Source of the DNA: Treponema sp.
GTDB lineage: Bacteria; Spirochaetota; Spirochaetia; Treponematales; Treponemataceae
Length of the DNA: 63,057 bases
NCBI GenBank assembly: GCA_024683675.1
Contig: JAIKYB010000108.1
Coordinates: 1 to 63,057, forward strand
Direction of reading: 5' to 3'
The notes under the pieces were generated by a model. That model worked only from the letters and a program-made list of their open reading frames with translations, was not told where the DNA came from and did not search any database. The position numbers were made by a program, and so were the translations under genes. This document shows positions 33,671 through 59,098 of this stretch, in pieces (the stretch's first letter is position 1; the number at the start of each line of letters is the position of its first letter).

Positions 33671-34168
33671 TTAAATCTGAGGAAGATCGTAAACAGGAAC
33701 ACCCGTAACGATTGGCTTTTTATCCTTATCAAATAATATATTCCCCTTATTAATGTCATAAAGGAAAATTATAATAAAAGTAAGTAAGCCAAAGAAAAGA
33801 CCAATTATCTTACAGTATTTTTCAGGAAGGAATTCAGGTTCTTCATGTCTTACTACAGTGCCTGTATCATAAAGTGCAGTCTGAGCAGGTTTTAAACCGG
33901 TAATTTTTACAAGCTTTTCATCTTCTGAAACATAATCTAATTTACGTGCATAAGCGGCAATAACAGCCTTATCAAATTGAAGTGCAGTAAGCTCAAGCTT
34001 CAATTCACTATTAATATTCTGAATATCATCAGTCTGCTTGCTAATAATTCTTCTCTGCTCTTCCATTTGGTTATAGCAACGAATACTATTCTGTCCAACA
34101 GTAACTGAAATTAACACATAAGCCAGTGTGGCAGAGAAAATCGACAACAAATATTTTGCACGTTTCAT
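33671..34168 (-). CDS. FtsB/DivIC-like coiled-coil membrane protein, tentative
   Basis: From the ATG at 34168 the product has about 165 residues: a membrane helix (about 5-22), a coiled coil (about 25-60), a polar region, a second membrane helix (about 111-133), and a short tail. The first half resembles the septum-formation proteins FtsB/DivIC, but the second helix is not typical, so the call is weak. An in-frame TTG 7 codons upstream is possible. I prefer the ATG because a GCCGATAAT box (34187-34179) overlaps that upstream stretch and ends 10 bases before the ATG. No ribosome site is seen. Confidence 0.5.
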   Translation of the reverse strand: MKRAKYLLSIFSATLAYVLISVTVGQNSIRCYNQMEEQRRIISKQTDDIQNINSELKLELTALQFDKAVIAAYARKLDYVSEDEKLVKITGLKPAQTALYDTGTVVRHEEPEFLPEKYCKIIGLFFGLLTFIIIFLYDINKGNILFDKDKKPIVTGVPVYDLPQI

Positions 34169-34179
34169 AATATATTTTA

Positions 34180-34187
34180 TTATCGGC
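34180..34187 (-). promoter_or_regulatory. GCCGATAA box upstream of the FtsB-like gene
   Basis: On the minus strand this is a perfect sigma-28 -10 consensus, GCCGATAA. The expected TAAA at -35 is not present at 14-16 bases. It could alternatively work as a GATAAT sigma-70 -10 box. It mirrors the plus-strand box at 34272-34279. Confidence 0.4.
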
Positions 34188-34271
34188 AAGAATTTCTGTT
34201 TTCTGAAATCAAAAGATATGTTATAATAAAAAAAAGAATCTAAATTATCTATGTACTTTTTAGCCTTTTTT

Positions 34272-34279
34272 GCCGATAA
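34272..34279 (+). promoter_or_regulatory. GCCGATAA box upstream of the acidic-protein operon
   Basis: This perfect GCCGATAA lies 35 bases before the acidic protein ATG. A clear TAAA -35 is missing. A sigma-70-like TATACT (34294-34299), with TTGCCG 18 bases before it, is an alternative that overlaps this box. Both would leave the GAGGAA ribosome site in the message. Confidence 0.45.
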
Positions 34280-34314
34280 TTATATAGATAAATTATACTT
34301 ATGTGAGGAAATGT

Positions 34315-37300
34315 ATGAGCAGATCTGATGATAACGCAAATGATCTTGAAAGCTATGGAGTTTGGGTAAAAAACACCGGCGATAAAGAAGACCTGGAGTT
34401 AAATGATTCAACTGAAGGGTTACCAGATTTTGACGATTCAGACTTTTCAGATATGTTCAAAGATGACTCCCAGTTTTCTACCGAAGAAAATGCTGATGCA
34501 GAAGGCTTCGAGGGAGATTCCACATTAAGCACAGATGAATTAGCTAACATAACAGGTGCTGGTGATGTTGCAATAGAAGAAGTAAATGCAGAAGACTTTG
34601 CAGATTCTACAGAAGATGAAGACATGCCAGACTTTACAGACATATCAATAGAAGCTTCTTCTGACGAAACACAAGATGTTACAAGTGATTTTGAAGAGAC
34701 TCTCCTCCCCGATGATTCTGAAGAACCCTCACATGACTTTGAAGAATCAGGAGAAATTACATTTGGTGAAGATGAAGAAATCTCACTGGATGATTTTATG
34801 GACGAAGGCTTCTCTGACGAAACTGTTGCAGCAGGTAACAATGGTTTTGAACCAGGTAAAGAACCTGATTCTGGAGAATCTGAAGAACTTTCTCTTGATG
34901 ATTTTATGGATGGTGGCTTCTCAGATGCTGTTCCTGGTCCAGATGAATCTGCAAAAGCAGAAGACACTATAGTTGATGAAAAACCATTGGAAATGGATAT
35001 TGAATTTGACTCATCAGCAGATCAGGTAGAAACAGAAGATAATATTTCAATAGAAACAGATTATTCTGATGACGATGATGATACATCTTCAGAATCTTCA
35101 ATTATAACTGAAGAAATTTCACTTGATGATTTTGGAACTTCCTTTGATTCAATTGCAGATACTGCAGACAGTTCTAAAACAGAAAGTGTTGCAGTTTCTA
35201 CAGGAGACATTTCAACAGAAGAAGTTGATTTGTCAGATTTTGGTATTGATGCAAGTGCAGAAGAAACTCCTGTAACTCAGGACGTTGAAGCTGCTAAGAA
35301 TAAAGAAAAAATTATCGATTACGACTTATCAGTAGGAGATGAAAACATGGCAACAGCACCTGTAGTTAATGAAATTAAAACATCAACTTCAGAAACACCA
35401 GCAGAAACCCAGACTACAATTCCAGAAAATGCAACAGTAGTAGAAAACTCATTACTGCAGCAAATTGTTCAGGATTTAGCAGGTCTTAAAGATGAAATCA
35501 ATAAGATTAAGAGTAATATAGAAGAAATAAAAGCTGGAGAAATACCAGAAGGCTACGAAGCCAGTATACAAACAGAAGAACAAGAGCTTGATATTCCACA
35601 GGCAGATGAAAGCCAGCAGTCTTCAGGTGGCTTCTTTGATTCTGATGATACAGATGAAACTATTGCCCTCTCCGGAGATGAGTTATCAAATATCTTTAAT
35701 ACAGCAGAATTCAGTGAAAGTGAAGAAGTTTCTGCAGAAGAAAATGATGCTACTGAAGAAAATGATGTAATAGAAGAACCTATTGTTCAAGAAGCAGCAG
35801 AAGAGTCAGTAACAGAAGAAGTTTCTGAAGAACCTGTTTTCGAAGAAAGCCTTGCTGAAGAAGATATTCCGGTTGAAGAAGAAACCGTTGCTGAAGAAAA
35901 TGAAATTGAAGAAACAGCTGTTGATGAAAACGAAGTTGAAGAACCAGCAATAGAAGAAAGTCCTTCTTTTGATGAAGAAATAGTTGAAGAAAGTGTTGAA
36001 GTTCCGGCAGATGAAGAAATTACAGAAGAAGAAACTCCTTCATTTGAAGAGAACATAACAGAAGAGGAAACTCCGGTATTCGATCAGGAACCTGTTTTTG
36101 AAGAAGAAAACCTTGAAGAAAGTTCAGAAGAAGTTCCGGTATTTGATGAAGAAGTACCTGCTTTTGATGAAAGTTCTATAACAGAAGAAAGTCCTGTATT
36201 CGAAGAAGATATTCCTGTAGAAGACGAAACAATTGTAGAAAACTCTGGTATTGAAGAGCCTGTTGTAGAAGAACCTGTTACAGACGAAATTACAATTGAT
36301 GAAGAAATTGTAGAAGAAGAAACTCCGGTATTCGATGAAGAAACTGTAATTGAAGAAGAAGCTCCTGCAGAAGAAGAGACATTTGTTGAAGAAGACGTTT
36401 CAGAAGATATTCCAGTTGAAGAAGAGATAGTTGAAGAAGAAACTCCAGTATTTGAAGAAGAAGCTGCTGTAGAGGAAGAAGTAAATGAAGAAATATCTCT
36501 TGTAGATGAAATTAATCTTGATGAAGAAATTGAAGAAAAATCTGATGATGATACTTTAGTATTTGAAGAAGAAACTCCTATTGAAGAAATATCAGAAGAA
36601 GAAACATTTGATGAAGAATCAAATGATGAGGATTTGACATTTGACTTCCAGGATGAAGAACTTAATGAACCAGACCTGGCTTCAATTGATGAAAATGCCG
36701 TAATAGAAGATTCTGAAGATGAAGAGAATGATCTTCCTGATGAGATTTCAATTCCTCAGTCTGATGACTTACTTGTAGAATCTAATTCAGCAGATTTTAT
36801 TAATTCTGTTGCAGATACTACAGAAGAAGAACTTGAAGAAGAGATTCCTACTGTAGACAAGATTCTTGAAGAAGACAATGCAGAAGAAAGTCCTCTTGAA
36901 GAAAATGCTGTTGAAGAAAGTAATGAAGAAGAGAACTTCGCTGATGTAGATGTATTTGAAAGCTCTGAAATTGAGCCTCTTGAAGACGACTTTGCAACAA
37001 CAGATGATTTAATTTCAGAAAGCTCTCTTGAAGAAGTTACTGAAGAAGCAGTAATAGAAGAAAATCCAGTAGAAGAGGATTTTGCAACAACTGATGATTT
37101 AGTAACAGAAGAAGAAGTAAGCCCTGCTCCTGCAGAAGAAAGCTTTGCAGAAGTAGATAATCTGGATAATGGAATCTCAGAGAGTAATCTTGATTATCTT
37201 ACAAAGAAAGATGATGCAGTTGAAGCTGAAACAAGTTCAGTTTCTAAAGATTTGAAGCAGGATATTAAATCTGTATTACTCTACATGGATCAGCTGCTTG

Positions 37301-37392
37301 AAAACCTTCCAGAAGAAAAGATTGTTGAATTTGCTAAATCAGATGAGTTTATAACTTATAAAAAATTGTTCAACGAATTAGGACTTTCATAA
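34315..37392 (+). CDS. Large highly acidic repeat protein, first gene of the DUF115 operon
   Basis: About 1025 residues, dominated by Glu and Asp with few basic residues and no signal peptide or membrane helix, so it is a cytoplasmic and largely disordered scaffold. It contains four copies of an EEISLDDF-type motif (coded near 34774, 34882, 35110, 35218), a long tract of EETPVFDEE-like repeats (about 35730-36480), and two DDFATTDDL copies. A short predicted coiled coil (about residues 378-405) lies between. The last ~50 residues (KQDIKSVLLYMDQLLENLPE) form the only clearly folded, basic-containing segment and may be the binding end. I use the ATG at 34315 because GAGGAA stands 5 bases before it; an in-frame GTG lies 4 codons earlier. 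Function unknown. Confidence 0.75.
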   Translation: MSRSDDNANDLESYGVWVKNTGDKEDLELNDSTEGLPDFDDSDFSDMFKDDSQFSTEENADAEGFEGDSTLSTDELANITGAGDVAIEEVNAEDFADSTEDEDMPDFTDISIEASSDETQDVTSDFEETLLPDDSEEPSHDFEESGEITFGEDEEISLDDFMDEGFSDETVAAGNNGFEPGKEPDSGESEELSLDDFMDGGFSDAVPGPDESAKAEDTIVDEKPLEMDIEFDSSADQVETEDNISIETDYSDDDDDTSSESSIITEEISLDDFGTSFDSIADTADSSKTESVAVSTGDISTEEVDLSDFGIDASAEETPVTQDVEAAKNKEKIIDYDLSVGDENMATAPVVNEIKTSTSETPAETQTTIPENATVVENSLLQQIVQDLAGLKDEINKIKSNIEEIKAGEIPEGYEASIQTEEQELDIPQADESQQSSGGFFDSDDTDETIALSGDELSNIFNTAEFSESEEVSAEENDATEENDVIEEPIVQEAAEESVTEEVSEEPVFEESLAEEDIPVEEETVAEENEIEETAVDENEVEEPAIEESPSFDEEIVEESVEVPADEEITEEETPSFEENITEEETPVFDQEPVFEEENLEESSEEVPVFDEEVPAFDESSITEESPVFEEDIPVEDETIVENSGIEEPVVEEPVTDEITIDEEIVEEETPVFDEETVIEEEAPAEEETFVEEDVSEDIPVEEEIVEEETPVFEEEAAVEEEVNEEISLVDEINLDEEIEEKSDDDTLVFEEETPIEEISEEETFDEESNDEDLTFDFQDEELNEPDLASIDENAVIEDSEDEENDLPDEISIPQSDDLLVESNSADFINSVADTTEEELEEEIPTVDKILEEDNAEESPLEENAVEESNEEENFADVDVFESSEIEPLEDDFATTDDLISESSLEEVTEEAVIEENPVEEDFATTDDLVTEEEVSPAPAEESFAEVDNLDNGISESNLDYLTKKDDAVEAETSSVSKDLKQDIKSVLLYMDQLLENLPEEKIVEFAKSDEFITYKKLFNELGLS

Positions 37393-37393
37393 T

Positions 37394-38188
37394 ATGGGTT
37401 TGCTTTCAAAAGCCGGTCACCTTGAAACAAATAAGGGACTGGCTTTTTCTGAATTTATTAACAAATATAATTTCAAAATTTGTGCTCTATTTGAAAAAAA
37501 GGATAATTTCTTTCTTATAAAAAACAGCATAGGTTTTGATGGGGCCTCTATTTTATCATCATATTCCACAGTAGACTTTTGGAATGGCATTTGTGATACT
37601 GTTGAAGAATTAAATATTTTTACAGATGATAATGGAACACTTTCTCCCCTGCTTCAGTTGTTTTCTTTTTCACAAAAAGACGATATAGAATCCGTTGCAG
37701 TATATAAGCCTTCAAATTCTAAAATCTTTATTTCCTGCAATCAAAAATTCCCTAAAGAATGTATTCATGATTTATGTAATCTTGATGAAAATAAAAAAAT
37801 TATAAATCTTGAATCATTAAATCGCCTGATTACTAGAGAATCTAAAGTAATTGAAATGGAAGTTGATTTTGAAGAAGCCGTAGAAAGCTTTTTACAGGCC
37901 CAGGTAAAGGATAAAACAAAAGCCGCAACCTTCATTGATTCTATTTATAATGAAATCTCAAACCGCTTCTTATGTTACTTTTCAAAAAATGTATCAGTAA
38001 GAATAAATCAGCATAGTTCAAGAGCAATTTTCGTAGTTTCCAGAGATTTAACACAGGAACACCTGATAAATCATATAATATTAAATCTTTCTGGAGTTAT
38101 TGGAAACTATTCTGAAATTATTAACTTTAATGTTTCTGGAATAGCAAATTCTATTCCAGAAATTAAAGAGTTTTTACAGGTAGAATAA
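37394..38188 (+). CDS. Unknown soluble protein of the DUF115 operon
   Basis: The 264-residue product has no signal peptide or membrane helix. The N-terminal ~140 residues alternate strands and helices in a GAF- or roadblock-like way (KICALFEKKDNFFLIKNSIG). The C-terminal ~110 residues (about 155-264) look like a second alpha/beta domain. I recognise no catalytic motif. It starts 1 base after the acidic protein stop and is followed after 2 bases by the first DUF115 gene, so it belongs to the same operon. Confidence 0.6.
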   Translation: MGLLSKAGHLETNKGLAFSEFINKYNFKICALFEKKDNFFLIKNSIGFDGASILSSYSTVDFWNGICDTVEELNIFTDDNGTLSPLLQLFSFSQKDDIESVAVYKPSNSKIFISCNQKFPKECIHDLCNLDENKKIINLESLNRLITRESKVIEMEVDFEEAVESFLQAQVKDKTKAATFIDSIYNEISNRFLCYFSKNVSVRINQHSSRAIFVVSRDLTQEHLINHIILNLSGVIGNYSEIINFNVSGIANSIPEIKEFLQVE

Positions 38189-38190
38189 CT

Positions 38191-39651
38191 GTGATTGAAT
38201 TTAAGCCCGCTAAAAATGAGGAACTTACTGCCAGTGCAGATGGAATACTCTTACATTCGGGCTATAATCCTTCTAAAGAAGCAGAAAGATACGCTGAAAA
38301 TTTACAGCTTTTACCCTATGAAAATATTTTAATTTTAATAGAACCTGCAATTTCTTATGCTGCTAAATTTATAAAAAAGAAATATCCCGATATAAAGCTT
38401 GGGGCCATTCGTTTTTCTTCAGATTTCAATAAATATAACGACAATTTCGATTTTATAATCAATTTTAATTCATCTTTTAACGAAAAACTCTTTTCTTTGC
38501 TAGGCGAAGAAGGAATTTATCAAACACATTTTTCTGATTGGGAAGCAAGTAAAAAAGTCTTTCCAGAAGAATACAAAAAGTGTATTTTTGCCATTAAAGA
38601 ATGTATGGAAAAATCAAAAACACTTTTAGTAACTAGAGAATATTTTGAAAAAAAATGGTTCTCTAATTCCCTAAATTTTATAAAATACTTAAAAAATCCT
38701 ATTACATTAAAGGAAAAAATTAACAGAGATGTATTAATTTTAGCATCCGGTCCTAGCTTAAAAGCAGCCCTTCCCTATATAAAGGAATATCAGGATAAAT
38801 ATTTTATAATTGTTTTATCTTCAGCAATTCGACTGGCTTTGGAAAATAATATTAAGGCTGATCTTACCATGTCAACAGACGGAGGCTATTGGGCTGGAGA
38901 ACATCTGAAACATATTCCAGAAAATTGGTTTATTGCACTTTCACCCGAAAGTTGGGCTGATAAAAAGCTTTTAGCAAGCAACTATATTTTACCACTAAAT
39001 TATGGGGATGGAATTTCTTCTAAACTTTTGTCTATATGCGGTTTTACGAAATACATAAAGGCAGAAAGAAACGGAACTGTGAGTGGAACTGCACTGTCTT
39101 TTGCTTTAAGTAATAGTCTAGGTAAAATTTATATATTTGGTTTAGATATGGCAAATAGTAAAGGTTTCCAACACAGTCAGCCCAATGAACTTGAAATAAA
39201 TAACTCTCTAAAAGATTTCAGACTTTTACCATGTCAGAGCCGGCTTTATAAAAGCGAAATAGCACATGGCAGCTTAGACATATATTTACAATGGTTTGAG
39301 GAAAGAAATTTTGAAAAGGATAGAGTGTATAGAATTATAGACAATCCAAAAAATCAACTTGGAAAAATAAAAGATATTAGCAGTAAAAATTTTTTTGAAA
39401 TCTGTATGGAATATAATATAAGTAAAAAACAAGGAAATGAGTATTTTGTCATTCAAGAAAAAAAATCAACTTGTTTAAAAAAGTTAACAGAAAATGAAAA
39501 ATTAATTTTTTCAGAAAAAAATATCAAGCAATTATTCCCTCTTTCAAATCTTTCCATCAATCATAATCCGGACAATAAAGAAGTCAAAGAAAGACTGGAA
39601 AATGAAGTTGCAAAATTAAAAAGAAAATTCAGGGAAATATGTAATGAATAA
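38191..39651 (+). CDS. DUF115/MptE-like protein 1, motility accessory factor-like
   Basis: The 486-residue product has the DUF115 core from about residue 175, beginning with LILASGPSLKAALPYI and continuing through ADLTMSTDGGYWAG and the conserved IYIFGLDMA. DUF115 occurs in archaeal 6-hydroxymethylpterin pyrophosphokinase (MptE) and in Maf proteins that put nonulosonic acids on flagellins. The N-terminus shares a YNPSKEAE motif with the next gene. The start is GTG, 2 bases after the previous stop. The sequence shows the family; whether it is a glycosyltransferase here is inferred. Confidence 0.75.
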   Translation: MIEFKPAKNEELTASADGILLHSGYNPSKEAERYAENLQLLPYENILILIEPAISYAAKFIKKKYPDIKLGAIRFSSDFNKYNDNFDFIINFNSSFNEKLFSLLGEEGIYQTHFSDWEASKKVFPEEYKKCIFAIKECMEKSKTLLVTREYFEKKWFSNSLNFIKYLKNPITLKEKINRDVLILASGPSLKAALPYIKEYQDKYFIIVLSSAIRLALENNIKADLTMSTDGGYWAGEHLKHIPENWFIALSPESWADKKLLASNYILPLNYGDGISSKLLSICGFTKYIKAERNGTVSGTALSFALSNSLGKIYIFGLDMANSKGFQHSQPNELEINNSLKDFRLLPCQSRLYKSEIAHGSLDIYLQWFEERNFEKDRVYRIIDNPKNQLGKIKDISSKNFFEICMEYNISKKQGNEYFVIQEKKSTCLKKLTENEKLIFSEKNIKQLFPLSNLSINHNPDNKEVKERLENEVAKLKRKFREICNE

Positions 39652-41152
39652 ATTATACCAGTCAATAATTGAAGCAAAAAATGGCACTTTTATTCCTCTT
39701 TTATATAACGGTAAAACAGTTGATTCAAAATATAATCCCCAGAGAGAGGCTGAAAAACAACTTGAAAATATAAATACAGATAATCAATTTAATTTTTTTA
39801 TTCTTTTGGGTTTAGGCTGTGGAATATTTGCTCAAGCTTTAAGTCAAAAATATCCTGATTCAAGAATATTAATTATAGAAAGAAGTCAGGAAGATATTAA
39901 TTTTTTATTGCAGATAAAGCTTATACAGGAACTAAAAGAAAATTCTAAAATAAGAATTACTGGTATTGAAGATTTAAGGAATGTTTTTACCTCTTTTTGG
40001 CTTCCCGCAAAATATGAAAAACCAGAAATAATTGAAAATCATGCATGGATACTTGAAAATAACGACCAGAAAGAAATAATCCAAAATGAACTCAATAAAG
40101 CCTTTAGAATAATTTCAGCTGATTATTCTGTGCAGAGTCATTTTGGAAAAATATGGCAGCATAACATTCTTTCAAACCTGATGGAGTTTTCTGATTATTT
40201 ACAAAATAATGAAGATTCATCACTTATAAATTCTTTAAATAGAAAGAAAAAGGCTATAATTATTGCAGCAGGCCCATCCTTAGACAAAAAAATTGAATAT
40301 TTAAAAGAAAATAAGGATAGTTTTTTTATAATTGCAACAGATACTGCAGCAAAGGCTTTATATAACAACAAAATAAAAGCTCATGCTGTAATTTCTATAG
40401 ACGGACAGCCGGTTTCAGTGAATCATTTTTTGGCTTCAGTAGAAAAGGATGCTTTATATTTTTTTGATTTTTCTGCAAATTCTTCTGCGGCACAATATAT
40501 CAGAAAACAAGGGGGCAGACTTGTATATTTTTCGTCAGGTCACCCCCTGCTAATTCTTGCTTCAACTTTAACTAAATGCAGCTTCCCTCAATTATTTTCG
40601 GGTGCTGGTACTGTAACTATAGCAGCAACAGATTTAGCAATAAAACTTGGTTTTACAGAAATAGAAGTTCTGGGGGCAGACTTTTCCTATCCTTATGGAA
40701 AAGCCTATACAAAAGGAACTTATCTTGAAGACCTTTATTACTTTAATCAAAATAAAATTGACAGTTGTGAAAGTAAATTCGATAAATTAATGTTTAGAAC
40801 CGCTCTGAATATCAACAAAAATAATAAGCCTACAACTGAAATATTAGAAGCTTATCAAGTATCATTCATTGAATTTTTAAAAAGTAACGATATTAAATAT
40901 AGAATAGAAAATGAAATATATATTCTTTCTAATTCACAAAATAAGAGGGAGGAATTAAAGGTTTGCAAAAGTTTTGATTTTAAAACTTTTTTGAATTTAT
41001 TTAAGCAATGTAAGCTGGAAGATATTGAAATTGCTTTACTGCCCTATATTGCTTACCTAAAAAAAGAGGAAAGAGGGCCTGTAAATTACCAGGAACTTCT
41101 GAAACTTGCACAGACCTTTATAGTAAGTTATAATGAAAGATATGAAAAATAA
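39644..41152 (+). CDS. DUF115/MptE-like protein 2, motility accessory factor-like
   Basis: The 502-residue paralogue has YNPQREAEKQLENI near residue 28, a Rossmann-like stretch LLGLGCGIFAQAL near residue 54, and the DUF115 core AIIIAAGPSLDKKIEYL near residue 202. AVISIDGQPVSVNHF and GADFSYPYGKAY follow. This N-terminal glycine loop is better kept than in the first copy, so the two may differ in activity or form a pair. It overlaps the previous gene by 8 bases and the next by 20, showing tight coupling. Role as above: probable flagellin glycosylation, not proven. Confidence 0.75.
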   Translation: MNKLYQSIIEAKNGTFIPLLYNGKTVDSKYNPQREAEKQLENINTDNQFNFFILLGLGCGIFAQALSQKYPDSRILIIERSQEDINFLLQIKLIQELKENSKIRITGIEDLRNVFTSFWLPAKYEKPEIIENHAWILENNDQKEIIQNELNKAFRIISADYSVQSHFGKIWQHNILSNLMEFSDYLQNNEDSSLINSLNRKKKAIIIAAGPSLDKKIEYLKENKDSFFIIATDTAAKALYNNKIKAHAVISIDGQPVSVNHFLASVEKDALYFFDFSANSSAAQYIRKQGGRLVYFSSGHPLLILASTLTKCSFPQLFSGAGTVTIAATDLAIKLGFTEIEVLGADFSYPYGKAYTKGTYLEDLYYFNQNKIDSCESKFDKLMFRTALNINKNNKPTTEILEAYQVSFIEFLKSNDIKYRIENEIYILSNSQNKREELKVCKSFDFKTFLNLFKQCKLEDIEIALLPYIAYLKKEERGPVNYQELLKLAQTFIVSYNERYEK

Positions 41153-42587
41153 GTTTATTTTAGGTTATTCAGTTATTGCATCAATTTTTATTATTTTTTC
41201 AGTTTCCTTTTTTTGTTTTAATTTATATCGAGAATATTCACTGGGAGAAGCCAGAACTAATACAAATTTTATTCGAATGACAAGTAAAATTAAATCAGCA
41301 TCCTACCAGGCTGATAAAAATTCACCAGAATACACGACCAAACTTATTCAAGCCATTGGTAATTTTGATGATATTTCCTACATCGAAATAAAAAGAGATG
41401 GAATAGCAATTCTTACCTATCCAGACACTTCCCGTAAGGAAGTAAAATCTTCTCTTACAATGAATTTTTCTGATAAAGCTTTAATAAGAGATTCAACACT
41501 TGAAATTGAAGCAAGTCTTTATCTTTTGCGCCCAATTTCTATTCATTATTACGCAAAAATTGCATTTTTAATGATTCTTATAGTTACAATGACTACTATA
41601 ATCTTAATTATCTATATTCAGATTCAGGAATCAGGTGCCTTCACTAGTTCTAATTCAGAATTAAAGACAGAAGATAATGAAGATAACCTTGACACCGAAG
41701 ACGAAGCAGATTACAGAAGAGCAGAAAATCTGGAAGAAGCTTGTGAAATTAAAAATAAAAAGACAGAGTTAGAAGAAATAAAAGCTGAAGAAGTAAAAGC
41801 ATCAGAAGCTGATAAGCCTGTTGAAGAAAGAAAAGCTTTTACAGAAGAAAAGCCTGTTGAAGAAAAAAAGCAAGTTGAGGAGGAAAGTTCGGTTGAAGAA
41901 AAGCCTGTTATAGAAGACAGCCCGATTGAAGAAGAAAAGCCTGTTGAAAAAGACATTCCGGTTAAAGAAGAAAAGCCTCTTACTGAAAAAAAGCCACTTT
42001 ACCATGAGAAAAGCTCAATTGATAAAGTAGAACTTCCGAGTGAAGATGAAAAACCGGTAGTAATTGAAACTACAAAAGAAGAAATTGAACCAAACGGACT
42101 GTTTTCTCCTATTACCGGTATCGGTTGGGAATCTTACCTGAAAACAAGACTTGAAAATGAAATCAGCAGAGCAGTTGCTTCTGAAATGGATTTCACTTTG
42201 TTTGTAATTCAGATTCCTGGCAGTAAGAGAGATTCTGAAATTATAAAGAATGTTTGCAACTATCTTGCAATTCAATTTCAGTTTAAAGATCTTCTTTTTG
42301 AATATAAGGAAGATTGTATTGTTGCAATGAAAATTAACATGAATCTTGATGAAGCCTTAAATTTTGCAGATAAGCTTTATACAGATATTATGAATATAAT
42401 CAGTGTAGAAAATAAAAAATGTTTTATGGGAATTTCTACACGTTCTATAAGAATTGTTGCTGCAGAAAGATTATTTACAGAAGCAGAACAGGCTTTGGAA
42501 CATGCAAAAGAGGATCCAGATTCTGCTATAATTGCATTCCGTGCTGATTCAGAAAAATATCGACAGTATTTAGACGAAAATAGATAA
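41133..42587 (+). CDS. Membrane protein with acidic linker and degenerate GGDEF-like domain
   Basis: The 484-residue product has two membrane helices (about 8-32 and 137-162) enclosing a ~100-residue periplasmic domain. A linker of repeats such as KPVEEKKQVEEESSVEEKPV spans about 190-310. The C-terminal domain (about 325-480) has the fold pattern of GGDEF diguanylate cyclases: a DFTLFVIQIPG strand near the start and AERLFTEAEQALEHAK at the end. At the active site it has LLFEYKEDCIVAM instead of GGDEF, so it should not make c-di-GMP and may bind a ligand or partner. It starts with a 20-base overlap. It ends exactly at the convergent TPR lipoprotein gene. Confidence 0.7.
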   Translation: MKDMKNKFILGYSVIASIFIIFSVSFFCFNLYREYSLGEARTNTNFIRMTSKIKSASYQADKNSPEYTTKLIQAIGNFDDISYIEIKRDGIAILTYPDTSRKEVKSSLTMNFSDKALIRDSTLEIEASLYLLRPISIHYYAKIAFLMILIVTMTTIILIIYIQIQESGAFTSSNSELKTEDNEDNLDTEDEADYRRAENLEEACEIKNKKTELEEIKAEEVKASEADKPVEERKAFTEEKPVEEKKQVEEESSVEEKPVIEDSPIEEEKPVEKDIPVKEEKPLTEKKPLYHEKSSIDKVELPSEDEKPVVIETTKEEIEPNGLFSPITGIGWESYLKTRLENEISRAVASEMDFTLFVIQIPGSKRDSEIIKNVCNYLAIQFQFKDLLFEYKEDCIVAMKINMNLDEALNFADKLYTDIMNIISVENKKCFMGISTRSIRIVAAERLFTEAEQALEHAKEDPDSAIIAFRADSEKYRQYLDENR

Positions 42588-58081: not shown

Positions 58082-59080
58082 TTAGCGATTAAAATCTTTA
58101 CCGCGGGGACCAAAATCAGCTTGTCTTTGGCGGAGCTCTTGAATTATAAGATTTCCGCTTTCTAACTGATCAATTAAATCCCAATGCCAGTCTAAATTAC
58201 TTGGTGGAAATGGAGGCTGGGCTGGAGCTTTTACTCTGGAATTTGCTTGAAGAATAATTTCCATCAGAGCTTCCAGACTGCTTTTATCGGCCAGGCGAAT
58301 TAAATAAGCTTCTTTATCAGTTACAAGGATTTTTTTATCCTCTGAAAAAATATAATTTTCACTCTTAAAATCAAGAGGTGCAACTACATTACGAACCTTA
58401 TTACTTCTTCCTGAAGTGGCTGAATAATTATTTCCACAGGAAAAAAGATGTTTATCAACATAAAACTCATCTTCTTTATATTTTACAAGAGCCTTTTCCT
58501 CTGAATAATCCATATCAGAAATCCAATAGCGAATATCATATATTCGGTCATTGCTTATATAAAGTCCGCCAATGTTTCGGTCTGTTGCCTGAGGACTTAG
58601 TTTAATTCCATCTGAAGAAGCATTACCCCGGTAATAGTTTTTATCTTCCTGATCCTGTATAAAAAAATTCAGATAAAGTTTTTCATCAAAAACTGCAAGA
58701 GCTATTTTATTCTGATCATGTTTGGAAAAATTTAGAATTAATTCGCCTGCAAAGGGAGAATTTTCTTCTTCAATAGAATTGCTTTTAGAAATTGATTGAA
58801 AGTCAAGCGCTACAAGCTCGGCACTTTTGCTGTCTGCTGTATTTCTGCTTCTTGGGTACTTTTCTGAATATGATTTAGCTTCTGCAGCCCTATTCAAATA
58901 CCAGCCATAATAAGTTTTTAAGACAATAAATAAATAAGGATTTTCATCAGTCTGGTCTTTTTCAAAAAAAATATACCGGTCCTTGCCTTCCCAAAGCCCG
59001 TATAACGATTGGGGTAACGTAGCGGAATGCACAGGAAACAGTAAAAAGAAAGCCAAACTGACTAAAAATCCTTTTTTCAT
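58082..59080 (-). CDS. Exported protein of unknown function
   Basis: The 332-residue product has a signal peptide (KKGFLVSLAFFLLFPVHS, cut near HSA) and a beta-rich mature part. The start LYGLWEGKDRYIFFEKD recalls lipocalin-like repeats, and similar blocks recur (NIGGLYISNDRIYDIRYW; KSENYIFSEDKKILVTDK), hinting at internal repeats of a strand pair. A polar, proline-containing C-terminal region ends with GPRGKDFNR. It has a GCCGATAA box 10 bases before the ATG and no ribosome site. It is divergent from thiI. Family unknown. Confidence 0.65.
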   Translation of the reverse strand: MKKGFLVSLAFFLLFPVHSATLPQSLYGLWEGKDRYIFFEKDQTDENPYLFIVLKTYYGWYLNRAAEAKSYSEKYPRSRNTADSKSAELVALDFQSISKSNSIEEENSPFAGELILNFSKHDQNKIALAVFDEKLYLNFFIQDQEDKNYYRGNASSDGIKLSPQATDRNIGGLYISNDRIYDIRYWISDMDYSEEKALVKYKEDEFYVDKHLFSCGNNYSATSGRSNKVRNVVAPLDFKSENYIFSEDKKILVTDKEAYLIRLADKSSLEALMEIILQANSRVKAPAQPPFPPSNLDWHWDLIDQLESGNLIIQELRQRQADFGPRGKDFNR

Positions 59081-59090
59081 CGTTAAATGA

Positions 59091-59098
59091 TTATCGGC
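59091..59098 (-). promoter_or_regulatory. GCCGATAA box upstream of the exported unknown
   Basis: A perfect sigma-28 -10 consensus read on the minus strand, with TTGA 15 bases upstream where TAAA is expected. The box ends 10 bases before the ATG. It could also serve as the GATAAT box of a sigma-70 promoter (TTGATT, 16-base spacer). Confidence 0.5.

Follow-up and report, generated by a model that had tools for sequence, protein, structure and literature searches.

A conserved Treponema operon with tandem DUF115 proteins and a sigma-28-type promoter: a candidate flagellin glycosylation module

Introduction

Which enzymes attach sugars to the flagellins of spirochaetes? The FlaB flagellins of Treponema denticola carry a 450.2 Da glycan on which both the assembly of the filament and motility depend (PMC9481697), and cryo-EM densities of Leptospira FlaB1, located at the core-sheath interface, have been read as putative glycans (PMC13144727). 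The enzymes that transfer these sugars have not been clearly identified and none is named in the literature found. A five-gene operon in a window of 63,057 nucleotides (the whole stretch of DNA that was analysed), from a Treponema-type spirochaete genome of 2.4 Mb that is about 80% complete, offers a specific, conserved and promoter-linked candidate set for such transferases. The set is present even in a 1.1 Mb T. pallidum-like genome (syphilis lineage), and with it the question becomes directly testable in a treponeme.

Organization of the locus

The operon consists of five plus-strand genes that span positions 34303-42587; in the ORF listing, the successive genes are separated by gaps of 1 and 2 bases and then overlap by 8 and 20 bases. 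The features of the locus are as follows.

33671-34189, minus strand: upstream neighbour, DivIC/FtsB-like (PF04977), divergent from the operon
34252-34279, plus strand: putative sigma-28-type promoter, with a degenerate -35 element TGTACTTT (34252-34259), a 12-base spacer and a -10 element GCCGATAA (34272-34279)
34303-37392, plus strand: gene 1, acidic protein, 1029 aa from GTG 34303 or 1025 aa from the likely ATG 34315
37394-38188, plus strand: gene 2, 264 aa, predicted GAF and degenerate GGDEF domains
38191-39651, plus strand: gene 3 (D1), 486 aa, PF01973/DUF115, Maf-like
39644-41152, plus strand: gene 4 (D2), 502 aa, PF01973/DUF115, Maf-like
41133-42587, plus strand: gene 5, 484 aa, two predicted TM helices and a degenerate GGDEF domain

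Beyond the DivIC/FtsB-like gene lie smpB and a TP0183-family gene, and a gene for a TPR protein is found downstream of the operon. The operon is not adjacent to flagellar genes. An earlier, sequence-only reading of this DNA had described five tightly packed genes encoding an acidic protein of about 1025 residues, a 264-residue protein, two paralogous DUF115 proteins and a membrane protein with a dead GGDEF-like domain. The ORF coordinates bear out the packing; the gene 1 product has a pI of 4.05 and is 36% D+E; both DUF115 proteins match PF01973; and gene 5 is predicted to encode a membrane-anchored protein with a GGDEF fold that lacks GG[DE]EF.

Conservation of gene order

The order and strand of gene 1, gene 2, D1, D2 and gene 5 are kept in all 20 neighbourhoods from family f1 (Treponemataceae), with gene 2 missing in one; these neighbourhoods cover the genus of the window and several others, including the T. 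pallidum-like genome. Across 80 named Treponema loci, which were collected via the D2 profile, the numbers with a profile match were 75 for gene 1, 66 for gene 2, 77 for D1, 80 for D2 and 78 for gene 5; several of the undetected genes are cuts at contig ends and some loci are genuinely without a recognisable gene 2. The median spacing of successive gene pairs in the named loci is -1, 2, -8 and -4 bases. In the f1 neighbourhood that lacks gene 2, from the Treponema relative G110 (L082:11574-11603), gene 1 abuts D1, and some lineages may thus be able to do without gene 2. Retention of the neighbourhood in related genomes had been named as a check on the sequence-only reading, which scattering of the genes would have spoken against; the five genes stay together across relatives and therefore are not scattered. 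The divIC-like gene is also divergent upstream of the operon in most of the relatives' loci.

The core of the operon (the acidic protein and the DUF115 pair) also occurs outside f1, elsewhere in the order and class. The arrangement gene 1/(variable gene)/D1/D2 occurs in f2, flagellated f3, f4, f5, f6, f9 and f11, and in a more divergent form in f12. In genomes of f3 and f4, gene 5 stands apart from the core. The genomes of f19 and f24, taken as Leptospira-like and Brachyspira-like, respectively, from size, copy number and class, have three unlinked DUF115 genes each; no tandem DUF115 pair was found in either, and no flagellar or sugar-nucleotide genes were found among the neighbours of these genes.

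A sigma-28-type promoter

The sequence-only reading had pointed to a sigma-28-like box upstream of the operon, and this claim has gained ground: the box is conserved in relatives, and the same type precedes flagellin genes. GCCGATAA occurs 5 times in the window (0.83 expected). Of 95 relatives, 70 have CCGATA 30-90 bases before the first gene, against a shuffle mean of 0.64 and a shuffle maximum of 3; among them are 10 of the 15 from other families. The 95 upstream regions are non-identical but related by descent, so these are not 70 independent observations, though the intergenic sequence around the box is otherwise variable at most positions. Position by position, the -10 element reads T-G-C-C-G-A-T-A, with a T-rich -35 element at the expected distance. 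The flagellin genes of five relatives are preceded by a TAAAGT-type -35 element and GCCGATA at the same spacing as in the operon promoter. The mapped promoter of T. denticola flaB2 (PflaB2) has a -10 element of CCGATAA and is assigned to sigma-28 (PMC9481697). The box is absent before the operon of the T. pallidum-like relative, and several other relatives scored as box-negative have a GTCGATA variant in place or ACCGATA further upstream. Judged from these patterns, the operon is probably under the control of a flagellar sigma-28 promoter. The regulon cannot be listed by motif search because a genome-wide search allowing 3 mismatches gave 109 matches and the reversed control 127, showing no excess.

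Other copies of the box were noted in the window. On the minus strand, a second GCCGATAA (34180-34187) faces away from the operon box and precedes the likely start codon of the DivIC-like gene (ATG 34168) by about 12 bases; it is a possible divergent sigma-28 promoter, and a reverse box also precedes some relatives' operons. Two more minus-strand copies, at 59091-59098 and 1157-1164, are just upstream of genes at 58082-59080 (332 aa) and 19-1122 (367 aa), respectively. Both encoded proteins have signal-peptide-like starts and no Pfam match, and their genes are candidates for further sigma-28 genes.

The acidic protein and the degenerate GGDEF proteins

The gene 1 product has no Pfam or NCBIfam match. 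It has syntenic homologues in relatives, and the alignment of these homologues contains only three conserved stretches.

34348-34371, plus strand: N-terminal motif, consensus ELDSYGVWVK (here ESYGVWVK), kept in other families
35455-35712, plus strand: middle region, a short coiled-coil-like stretch followed by GGFF..DETIALSGDEL.NI
37240-37389, plus strand: C-terminal motif, KSVLLYMDQLLENLPEEKI.EFA.S..F..YKKLF.ELG

The C-terminal motif, which no Pfam family covers, is present in 150 of 198 genomes of the phylum (none in f7) and as a single copy in the window's own genome. The protein is probably disordered, and its composition and the conservation of its motifs suggest an interaction hub or scaffold.

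The 264-residue product of gene 2 has the size first described and no Pfam annotation. It need no longer be listed as unannotated, which is new here: structure prediction identifies it as a GAF domain joined to a degenerate GGDEF domain. The AlphaFold2 model (mean pLDDT 88.7) matches GAF over residues 15-135 (Z 9.8) and GGDEF over residues 136-264 (Z 8.9) in structure comparison; Z values near 9 are moderate, but the matches for the two halves repeatedly name these same two folds. The top Foldseek match is the diguanylate cyclase 4zmu, aligned across both halves. In the model of gene 5, two TM helices flank a small beta domain, and a disordered acidic linker leads to a domain with the GGDEF fold (Foldseek 1.8e-8). 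The GG[DE]EF signature is found in none of 17 gene 5 homologues and in none of the aligned gene 2 homologues. Profile-profile comparison of gene 2 with gene 5 detected no sequence similarity, and the predicted common fold is visible in structure only. With gene 2 so identified, the operon would encode two dead-GGDEF proteins. Both resemble the degenerate GGDEF receptors of the LapD/PelD type in having a GGDEF fold without the catalytic signature and a GAF domain or membrane anchor; unlike those receptors, no EAL domain is present here and the genes lie within a candidate flagellin-modification operon.

What was observed, namely the order of the genes and how well it is kept, their domains, the conserved promoter and the co-occurrence with flagellin (see below), is best read as a sigma-28-controlled Maf-type flagellin glycosylation module, a reading that is held with moderate confidence. 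Transfer activity, FlaB as the substrate, the identity of the donor, scaffolding and regulation are the parts that we infer. Transcription would be driven by sigma-28 (FliA), and D1 and D2, as Maf-type glycosyltransferases with non-redundant roles, would add sugar to FlaB flagellins in the cytoplasm prior to export. The donor may be a nonulosonic-acid-like sugar supplied with the help of a NeuB-type synthase encoded elsewhere. The long acidic gene 1 product, through its three short motifs, would tether the enzymes and/or flagellin, and the catalytically dead GGDEF proteins of gene 2 (soluble, GAF) and gene 5 (membrane-anchored) may tune or place the complex. The sequence-only reading had placed a glycosylation module on an acidic scaffold; the module survives as the best reading, and the scaffold stays putative.

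A tentative elaboration, which we think less likely than not, is a scaffolded multi-subunit machine in which the two Maf-like transferases sit on an acidic disordered hub and are gated by the two dead-GGDEF proteins. Gene 2 would then be a soluble GAF sensor and gene 5 would read the periplasm, and sigma-28 together with a small-molecule signal would couple filament glycosylation to flagellar assembly. In Caulobacter FlmG, the substrate-binding part is separate from the transferase domain. The operon may be alike in drawing specificity from a part that stands apart from the transferase domain, the candidate partner here being the separate acidic protein; FlmG (a modular flagellin glycosyltransferase; PMC7591256) and the operon are likened by idea only, and no relation between them was found.

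The DUF115 proteins D1 and D2

Both proteins match PF01973 (MptE-like, formerly DUF115) above the cut-off of 34.6 bits, D1 at 2e-20 (73.7 bits) and D2 at 7.2e-33 (114.2 bits). Profile comparison matches D2 to 5mu5 at 1.8e-12 (profile positions 189-348) and D1 at 9.5e-8 over a short stretch; we take 5mu5 to be a Magnetospirillum Maf, and its structure record reads uncharacterized protein. A PseD model aligns with D2 residues 49-371 (3.9e-11). The residues D224, D230, G295, D319 and H328 of D1 are invariant across the family, and G210-P211, D253, H300-P301, G322-T323-V324 and D346 are conserved in D2. Two more DUF115 copies are encoded in the same genome, D3 (at C21) and D4 (at C52). In a maximum-likelihood tree of 50 sequences, in which the deep branching order and the long branches are uncertain, D1, D2, D3 and D4 form separate groups spanning several families, and the four therefore appear to be old paralogues, with D1 and D2 not the result of a recent duplication. 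D3 (L085:7429-9042) is a Maf with the N-terminal domain PF20157, and its gene immediately follows that of an ftsI-like transpeptidase. In a Brachyspira-like genome, too, a DUF115 gene (L188) is close to a PBP gene.

PF20157 was not detected in D1 or D2 by Pfam search. Its presence in D3 fits an alternative in which D3, as the canonical Maf, glycosylates, and the DUF115 pair serves as flagellin-binding chaperones or assembly/localisation factors without glycosyl transfer, with the acidic and dead-GGDEF proteins as an organising platform. Two further observations agree with this alternative: the T. pallidum-like homologue of D1 has a degenerate GPS loop, and the existence of four ancient paralogues suggests different jobs. 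However, most PF01973 motifs are kept family-wide in D1 and D2, as would be expected of enzymes, and a role as chaperones is considered unlikely.

Link to flagella

Of 350 flagellin-positive genomes, 343 have DUF115 over the cut-off, as against none of the 20 flagellin-negative genomes, one of which has a single sub-threshold match. The survey covered 370 distinct genomes, 197 from the order and 173 others from the phylum. Since the flagellin-negative genomes are confined to two families, the number of independent losses is small. Round spirochaetes without flagella also lack wall genes, and flagellum-less spirochaetes may have lost wall genes as well. The seven flagellin-positive, DUF115-negative genomes all belong to family f7 (1.0-1.8 Mb, as in Borrelia), which is taken as Borrelia-like from size and class; the C-terminal motif of gene 1 is absent from f7 too. 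Borrelia is without sigma-28, which other spirochaetes have (PMC11607428), and the flagellin of B. burgdorferi has been reported as unglycosylated (Sterba 2008, according to its title as cited in PMC6236881). The motility link drawn by the sequence-only reading is firmer now, given the conservation of the operon, the co-occurrence of DUF115 with flagellin, the conserved sigma-28-type promoter and the homology to Maf.

The loss of wall genes in round, flagellum-less spirochaetes would also suit an operon that modifies the sheath, the envelope or a peptidoglycan precursor, or that takes part in division or cell-shape control. The divergent divIC-like gene (PF04977) found upstream in most loci is in keeping with such a role, as are the penicillin-binding protein genes beside D3 and near the Brachyspira-like DUF115 gene. 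Against it, a sigma-28-type promoter precedes the operon, the Borrelia-like bacteria have flagella but no DUF115 and presumably divide normally, and sugars on flagellin have been described for both Treponema and Leptospira (PMC9481697, PMC13144727); an envelope or division role is therefore improbable. An identity of D1 and D2 as 6-hydroxymethylpterin diphosphokinases (MptE-like folate/pterin enzymes) was rejected as highly improbable: PF01973 is named after MptE and the D2 profile matches the pyrophosphokinase 8sd5 at 1.5e-9, but this match is partial (about 77 residues), Maf 5mu5 scores higher over 160 residues, and three to five copies per genome that track flagella are unlike a folate enzyme.

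Known glycosylation systems and sugar supply

The flagellin glycosylation module favoured here shares PF01973 and a link to flagella with the Maf/PseD glycosyltransferases (Aeromonas Maf1, Campylobacter PseD/Maf4, Clostridium Maf; 5mu5), and as in those systems the genome encodes a member of the nonulosonic acid synthase family. Maf/PseD enzymes are expected to act in the cytoplasm before export (PMC4065374, PMC3426422, PMC11339370). Unlike in those systems, two divergent paralogues occur here in tandem with PF20157 undetected, they share an operon with an acidic protein and two predicted dead-GGDEF proteins, and the operon lies outside a sugar-biosynthesis island, so that the donor may differ. 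A biological precedent is FlaB glycosylation in T. denticola (Kurniyati 2017; PMC9481697), which concerns the same bacterial family, a flagellin target and a requirement for filament assembly and motility; the operon is a candidate source of the T. denticola FlaB transferase. The locus suggests that spirochaete Maf enzymes partner with a dedicated acidic protein and dead-GGDEF regulators, a combination for which no description was found in the literature.

The sequence-only reading had stated that no sugar-synthesis genes are adjacent. This is correct for the operon itself, but a NeuB/PseI-family protein with a SAF domain (373 aa) is encoded elsewhere in the genome (G000:C208); its scores do not reach the equivalog cut-offs for sialic and pseudaminic acid synthases (NeuB/PseI). 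No nonulosonic-acid cluster was obvious by eye around NeuB in three genomes. Within the order, 164 of the 178 flagellated genomes and 3 of the 19 non-flagellated ones have strong NeuB matches (E <1e-20), the window's own genome and G013 among them; NeuB can also serve surface polysaccharides. About 7 kb away from the operon, and still within the window, is a gene for a family 8 glycosyltransferase (PF01501; 49451-50506, plus strand).
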